From positions 1 through 64,000 of the forward strand of contig NZ_JAUXXP010000058.1 in the NCBI RefSeq assembly GCF_030684895.1: a stretch of DNA of 64,000 nt. Reading direction: 5' to 3'. Below the pieces are notes generated by a model, which was given only the letters and a program-made list of their open reading frames with translations, was not told the origin of the DNA and did no database searches. This DNA comes from Pseudomonas sp. (GTDB lineage Bacteria; Pseudomonadota; Gammaproteobacteria; Pseudomonadales; Pseudomonadaceae). The translations under genes were made by a program, and so were the position numbers. This document shows, one piece after another, positions 41,989-49,231 of the stretch (position 1 is its first letter; each line of letters opens with the position of its first letter).

Positions 41989-42064
41989 TGGCGTCCCCTA
42001 GGGGACTCGAACCCCTGTTACCGCCGTGAAAGGGCGGTGTCCTAGGCCACTAGACGAAGGGGAC
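41989..42064 (-). tRNA. tRNA-Glu (anticodon TTC)
   Basis: GTCCCCTTCGTCTAGTGGCCTAGGACACCGCCCTTTCACGGCGGTAACAGGGGTTCGAGTCCCCTAGGGGACGCCA. Confidence 0.97.
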
Positions 42065-42128
42065 AAAACCTTCGAAGAACAAGGCCAGCTTTACGCTGGC
42101 CCCGTGGCAGTTGCTACTACTGCAAAAT

Positions 42129-42204
<76 letters not shown>

Positions 42205-42255
42205 GGATTTATCGCCTCTCGGCTCACAGCCCAAACTAGCACTGCTTTTTGAAAC

Positions 42256-42331
42256 TGGCGTCCCCTAGGGGACTCGAACCCCTGTTACCGCCGTGAAAGG
42301 GCGGTGTCCTAGGCCACTAGACGAAGGGGAC
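42256..42331 (-). tRNA. tRNA-Glu (anticodon TTC), second copy
   Basis: Same 76-nt sequence as at 41989-42064. Confidence 0.97.
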
Positions 42332-42394
42332 GTAACCCTTCTACAACCAACCAGCTACAAGAGCTGATTGTGGCAAGCCTTGCGGCTTTGAAGA

Positions 42395-42470
<76 letters not shown>

Positions 42471-48746: not shown

Positions 48747-48779
48747 GGGGAAGTCGATCAGGTATTGACTTCCCCTTTC
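48747..48779 (+). terminator. Intrinsic terminator downstream of aminotransferase
   Basis: GGGGAAGTC-N11-GACTTCCCC followed by TTTCT. Confidence 0.8.
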
Positions 48780-48804
48780 TAATCAGTAGGATACGCGCCA
48801 TTGT

Positions 48805-48880
48805 TCCGCGATAGCTCAGTCGGTAGAGCAAATGACTGTTAATCATTGGGTCCCTGGTTCGAGTCCAGGTCGCGGAGCCA
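48805..48880 (+). tRNA. tRNA-Asn (anticodon GTT)
   Basis: TCCGCGATAGCTCAGTCGGTAGAGCAAATGACTGTTAATCATTGGGTCCCTGGTTCGAGTCCAGGTCGCGGAGCCA. Confidence 0.97.
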
Positions 48881-48889
48881 GTAGTACAT

Positions 48890-48966
48890 CGGGGTATAGC
48901 GCAGTCCGGTAGCGCGCCTGCTTTGGGAGCAGGATGTCGGGAGTTCGAATCCCCCTACCCCGACCA
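48890..48966 (+). tRNA. tRNA-Pro (anticodon TGG)
   Basis: CGGGGTATAGCGCAGTCCGGTAGCGCGCCTGCTTTGGGAGCAGGATGTCGGGAGTTCGAATCCCCCTACCCCGACCA. Confidence 0.97.
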
Positions 48967-48970
48967 TTTT

Positions 48971-49046
48971 TGGTCGTTGGCTCAGTTGATAGAGCAGTTG
49001 GTGTTTAACCGATTACTCATGGGCCAGAAAGCCACATGCACCACCC
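48971..49046 (+). pseudogene. Degenerate tRNA-Lys-like sequence
   Basis: TGGTCGTTGGCTCAGTTGATAGAGCAGTTGGTGTTTAACCGATTACTCATGGGCCAGAAAGCCACATGCACCACCC; D and anticodon arms match tRNA-Lys(TTT), but U33 is G, T-loop TTCGAAT is CCAGAAA, acceptor stem broken. Confidence 0.7.
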
Positions 49047-49065
49047 TTTCAAGCCTGCTTGAAAG

Positions 49066-49093
49066 TAAAAACCCGCCTAGTGCGGGTTTTTTA
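49066..49093 (+). terminator. Intrinsic terminator downstream of tRNA cluster
   Basis: AAAAACCCGC-CTAGT-GCGGGTTTTT; preceded by a second perfect hairpin CTTTCAAG-CCTG-CTTGAAAG (49046-49065). Confidence 0.9.
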
Positions 49094-49231
49094 TTGCCCA
49101 TCAACTGGGCGAGCATCGCGAAAAAAAATCACCAAAAACTATTAGATCCATTCAATCCAAACATTTCACCAATCACACTTTCACCACTAGGCTGCACCTC
49201 AATAAAGAATAATTCTCACTCGAGGTGCGTC

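Follow-up and report, generated by a model that had tools for sequence, protein, structure and literature searches.

A decayed tRNA-Lys between tRNA-Pro and a terminator in Pseudomonas, and its probable origin in a tRNA array copied from the ndh locus

The tRNA array and its tRNA-Lys relic

The window, by which we mean the whole stretch of 64,000 nucleotides of Pseudomonas sp. DNA that was analyzed, carries a short tRNA array surrounded by open reading frames for aminotransferase, DUF2061-like, and GH17-like genes. The features of the array are listed in Table 1. An inverted repeat located 3' of the aminotransferase gene (GGGGAAGTC..GACTTCCCC) overlaps the −35 element of the promoter-like site and recurs in relatives; possible roles are those of an operator or of a terminator for the aminotransferase gene. 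The intrinsic terminator at the end of the array was recognized from its sequence and fold. It is missing from the output of the consensus scan, possibly owing to a stem that continues into the T tract. Elsewhere in the window, two tandem tRNA-Glu/tRNA-Ala pairs were seen on the minus strand.

Table 1. Features of the tRNA array and of its surroundings, in window positions.
Feature	Position	Strand	Remarks
Two tandem tRNA-Glu(TTC)/tRNA-Ala(GGC) pairs	41989-42470	-	
Inverted repeat	48748-48776		recurs in relatives
Sigma-70-type promoter-like site, before tRNA-Asn	48765..48792	+	TTGACT, 16 nt, TAGGAT; motif recurs in relatives
Duplicated tract (Asn-Pro-Lys-palindrome-terminator)	48803..49098	+	90% identical to C73:8960-9258 (ndh locus)
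tRNA-Asn(GTT), intact	48805..48880	+	T stem CTGG/CCAG, usual type for the locus
tRNA-Pro(TGG), intact	48890..48966	+	CCA ends at 48966
Pseudo-tRNA-Lys (decayed tRNA-Lys(TTT))	48971..49046	+	orthologous relics in G493, G335, G110, G076, G014, and P. guineae
Relic, acceptor stem	48971-48977 / 49036-49042	+	standard pairs at 4 of 7
Relic, D stem	48980-48983 / 48992-48995	+	GCTC/GAGC, intact
Relic, anticodon stem	48997-49001 / 49009-49013	+	GTTGG/CCGAT, paired
Relic, anticodon loop	49002-49008	+	TGTTTAA; position 33 is G, UUU anticodon retained
Relic, T loop	49024-49030	+	CCAGAAA
Anticodon-arm hairpin	48992..49018	+	GAG c AGTTGGT gttta ACCGATT a CTC; sole arm with folding kept across most relics
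Palindrome	49046..49065	+	CTTTCAAGCCTGCTTGAAAG (TTTCAAGC..GCTTGAAA); in the copied tract, present also in the ndh-locus source array
Intrinsic terminator	49067..49092	+	AACCCGC CTA GTGCGGGTTTTTT; ACCCGCCTAGTGCGGGT; common to the source array; from sequence and fold

The relic aligns with intact tRNA-Lys(TTT) almost without gaps over its full length and is identical to it at 57 of 75 positions. An earlier note had described it as a decayed full-length tRNA-Lys, and the sequence, coordinates, and arm lengths given there were confirmed. The features of a functional tRNA-Lys are missing: there is no cloverleaf scored by a detector, and U33, a T loop of the TTCRANT type, the CCA end, and a paired acceptor stem are absent, the 3' tail being ACCC where ACCA is expected. 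The change of G1 to T can equally well be read as the deletion of one G after TTTTT. Neither of the tRNA detectors called the relic: ARAGORN called the Asn and Pro of the array but no Lys, and the Rfam tRNA model gave no match to it in a search of 2 kb, even with the threshold relaxed to E ≤ 5. For the other Rfam families only sub-threshold matches were obtained, mostly with leader- and sRNA-type models aligned to the terminator hairpin.

The earlier note had named a base-call error, or unrelated sequence at this locus in relatives, as what could overturn its reading. Neither was found. The sister genome G493 carries the same defects, which are therefore not due to a base-call error, and the sequence at this locus in the closest relatives that carry the block is homologous.

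An intact array in the same genome

The genome that contains the window is 4.4 Mb in 92 contigs and gave 55 matches to the tRNA model. Two intact tRNA-Lys genes were counted in it, as the earlier note had suggested should be done. The first belongs to an intact Asn-Pro-Lys array on contig C73 (8962-9204) at the ndh locus, followed by the same palindrome and terminator, and the second is a solitary tRNA-Lys on contig C70 that is identical to it. From their translations, we take the neighbors of the C73 array to be a DUF1631-like gene and an NADH-dehydrogenase-like (ndh) gene. A 96-bp segment with the relic matched the intact C73 copy with an E-value of 6.6e-17 and the C70 copy with 1.4e-9, a resemblance far greater than chance would produce.

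The whole window array matched C73 with an E-value of 1.6e-110, over a tract of ~296 bp. This tract begins in the first bases of tRNA-Asn and ends about 6 nt past the T run of the terminator, and the flanks on both sides are unrelated. To judge from the alignment, the window array is a copy of the Asn-Pro-Lys-terminator array of the ndh locus of the same genome. The T stem of the window tRNA-Asn is of the type of the locus, in contrast to CAGG/CCTG in the Asn of C73; the exchange would therefore have spared the body of the resident Asn or switched near the Asn 3' end.

Pace of decay and the anticodon-arm hairpin

The Asn-Pro block with a decayed Lys was found in the genome of the window and in the six relatives named in Table 1 (P. 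guineae being strain LMG 24016), the Lys being dead in 7/7 examined clade members carrying the block. The relics are 61-76% identical to Lys (mean 0.69), and their pairwise divergence between lineages is 0.30-0.45, compared to 0.31-0.51 at the fourfold sites of neighboring genes. For the segment with the palindrome and terminator, the pairwise divergence within the clade is 0-0.17. A simulation run at the fourfold rate, with death of the gene near the root of the clade, predicted an identity to Lys of 0.67-0.74, in agreement with the observed mean. By these comparisons, the relic drifts at about the pace of fourfold sites, which is what lost or relaxed selection gives. The view of the earlier note that this is a dead tRNA produced by point decay is thus upheld by the two intact Lys genes elsewhere, by this pace, and by the death of the same locus in six relatives.

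One comparison departs from this pace. Between the window and G493 the relics differ at 4 of 75 sites, while 25.6% (0.256) of the fourfold sites and 16% (0.162) of the downstream spacer differ, so the relic has changed more slowly than under free decay. The whole tRNA block is, however, nearly identical between the two genomes, and therefore allele exchange through the tRNA genes explains the slow change as well as constraint does. Two features of a tRNA pseudogene were examined, and the relic shows both: homology to an intact tRNA gene across its length (at 57/75 positions and in the array alignment to C73) and loss of selection (neutral pace and redundant intact copies), apart from the slow change between the window and G493 and from the anticodon hairpin.

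In the folds of the relics, a stem-loop appears to persist at the site of the anticodon arm, in G335, G076, and G014 with different letters. Three double-sided changes keep the pairs, U-A to C-G in both G335 and G076, and G-C to A-U in G014, whereas the hairpin is lost in G110 and only weakly kept in P. guineae. The energy of the arm was compared with that under random decay with an equal number of changes in six lineages. It was below neutral decay in four of the six at P < 0.06 (Fisher P = 1.5e-4), in a post hoc test that was chosen after the folds had been inspected and that covers few sequences. The same test revealed no excess stability for the D arm (0.84) or the T arm (0.31), and a weak combined signal for the structure of the whole relic (Fisher 0.03). 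When decay was simulated along a tree, so that the lineages shared ancestry, no more than 1 of 2000 runs attained the observed mean of -8.2 kcal/mol in any of four settings (P about 0.0005-0.001, also post hoc). Counts of pairs point in the same direction, as 77.5% of the cells of the anticodon arm were paired, against at most 46% when the arm was slid along, and three changes were double-sided; shuffles of columns and pairs matched these values in 31-44 of 500 trials, a borderline result. The tRNA-Asn of G014 (L100) has decayed too, and its anticodon hairpin (AATGACT-GCT-AGTCATT) has seven perfect base pairs, above a basal stem (GCGACAT/ATGTCGC) that is long; this pseudo-Asn folds rather well (P = 0.065).

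The stability of the anticodon hairpin beyond plain decay may be due to template-switch mutation or to its retention as a trailer hairpin. In the first case, template switching at quasi-palindromes would repair or lengthen inverted repeats without selection, and the origin and persistence of RNA hairpins have been ascribed to such events (PMC8794818). The relic of G335 contains several nested near-perfect inverted repeats within 73 nt (TCGCAC/GTGCGA, GCAGCTG/CAGCTGT), as these events would leave behind. On the other hand, no single event can be reconstructed from the relatives at hand, and the excess is seen in the anticodon arm only, although inverted repeats make up the D and T arms as well. 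We therefore regard a mutational origin of the excess as a tentative possibility, and one that is compatible with the decay of a redundant copied tRNA-Lys, the reading that we prefer.

In the second case the relic would have been reused: the 3' trailer of the Asn-Pro transcript would retain its anticodon arm as a stem-loop, which would aid 3'-end processing of tRNA-Pro or form a stable trailer RNA. The energy excess of this arm, which the D and T arms do not share, the pair-keeping changes in three lineages, the slow change between the window and G493, and the folding of the G014 pseudo-Asn all agree with such reuse. For the tRNA-derived RNA, still processed from the transcript, that the earlier note had named as one possibility, the excess stability of this hairpin is the sole pointer. 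Yet the test was post hoc with few sequences, the pair-shuffle controls were borderline, G110 has no hairpin, that of P. guineae is weak, and the primary sequence drifts about neutrally, which makes reuse rather unlikely in our opinion. We consider unlikely also the more general proposal that the dead tRNAs in the tRNA operons of this clade turn into single stem-loops, which selection would keep in the tRNA-Pro 3' trailer as a hairpin for processing or as a trailer RNA, their sequence being free to drift.

The locus in other Pseudomonas and the origin of the relic

The aminotransferase gene was present in 399 out of 400 sampled Pseudomonas genomes, and the downstream DNA was read at 90 loci and in further named genomes. 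Nearly all of the loci with a tRNA call had a single tRNA-Asn, without Pro or Lys. A block with an intact Lys was present at the aminotransferase locus of G041 and P. segetis. The trailers of these two are of the type found in the ndh-locus array of G041, while those of the window clade are of the type of its own ndh-locus array, and therefore at least two separate transfers have taken place. An Asn-Pro-Lys block that was ancestral at the aminotransferase locus and lost in most Pseudomonas would account for its presence in two separate groups, but it is very improbable given that the trailers of the two groups differ, each being that of an ndh-locus array within the group, and that a solitary Asn is widespread across the other sampled branches.

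G471 has a chromosomal rearrangement located at tRNA-Asn (L072 / L237, contig C47), by which an intact Asn-Pro-Lys array and then ndh follow the aminotransferase gene, and tRNA-Asn is therefore likely to have provided the homology for the exchange. A private T-to-C change is common to both tRNA-Pro copies of G014, an indication of concerted evolution in which one array later converted the other. The close relatives G231, G396, and G200 have tRNA-Asn alone at the locus. A gyrB tree calculated without G200 placed G231 and G396 among the block carriers with weak support (72/77 and 53/11); on this placement, a single gain of the block requires later loss or allele exchange or replacement, otherwise the gain was repeated. 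The third genus sample of Pseudomonas added no clade member beyond G493.

A separate observation was made at the loci with a solitary tRNA-Asn. Tandem units of ~148-150 bp follow this gene in 33 of 96 aminotransferase loci from many Pseudomonas (L055, L058, L061, L064, L069, L094, L099, L102, L148, L151, and others). In each unit, an intrinsic-terminator-like hairpin comes after the final ~20 nt of tRNA-Asn, and 2-4 copies of the Asn 3' end were counted. The Rfam search of four of these loci gave no family except tRNA. The units resemble the tyrT/rtT repeats of E. coli, and a search of the literature on rtT-type repeats found nothing useful. These units merit a study of their own.

The integration of a mobile element at a tRNA gene commonly leaves a partial tRNA copy (PMC9897764), but an attachment-site scar of this kind is extremely improbable here, as the relic is full length, the tract holds two more whole tRNAs and a terminator, it stems from elsewhere in the chromosome (C73), and no integrase was noticed among the neighboring ORFs (aminotransferase, DUF2061-like, and GH17-like). 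The earlier suggestion of a recombination scar at a tRNA site holds insofar as an exchange between two chromosomal tRNA-Asn loci is likely, whereas no sign of adjacent mobile-element integration was seen.

It is very likely that the relic is a redundant tRNA-Lys copy that decayed after the Asn-Pro-Lys array had been copied by recombination from the ndh locus. The source, the copied tract, the redundancy, the dead copies in relatives, and the near-neutral pace of decay are all observed. As to the mechanism of recombination and the order of events, non-reciprocal recombination, either gene conversion or crossover, probably came first and placed a copy of the ndh-locus array, terminator included, at the lone tRNA-Asn that follows the aminotransferase gene; the near identity of the two tRNA-Asn genes would have supplied the homology. 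The Asn and Pro would then have remained functional and would have been kept partly alike through further conversion. As two intact copies made the third tRNA-Lys redundant, it would have lost selection and decayed via point changes and small indels to an extent that varies among the descendants. At present, the relic is most likely mere trailer RNA between tRNA-Pro and the terminator that would be removed during the 3' maturation of tRNA-Pro.

RNA in a similar position is known from E. coli, where the 3' external transcribed spacer of leuZ lies between the last tRNA of the operon and the terminator. The pseudo-tRNA tRNA-Other of Bacillus cereus has been reported to be expressed in larger RNAs and to have a deletion phenotype (PMC3399842). 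It is a tRNA-like sequence inactive in translation, as is predicted for the relic. The bacterial tRNA pseudogenes flagged by tRNAscan-SE have been surveyed (PMC9858662); like the relic, they are derived from tRNAs, incapable of forming a cloverleaf, and found in genomes with redundant functional copies. The relic differs from them in that its origin, its source copy, and the parallel decay in relatives are resolved, and in being too decayed for ARAGORN and the Rfam tRNA model. New tRNA gene copies have also arisen by within-genome duplication during laboratory evolution of Pseudomonas fluorescens SBW25 (PMC7661048). The duplications in SBW25 were large and in tandem, in contrast to the window, where an array of ~300 bp would have been placed at a distant locus through tRNA-Asn homology and then partly lost.

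In kind, the relic is ordinary, with a well-documented history, and represents mostly ordinary genome decay. It provides a natural case of the evolution of a tRNA gene set, covering the origin of the extra copies, the maintenance of Asn and Pro, and the death of Lys, and the group of G041 and P. segetis is a replicate in which Lys survives. The retention of the hairpin, if true, would offer a chance to watch a tRNA relic become another RNA element.
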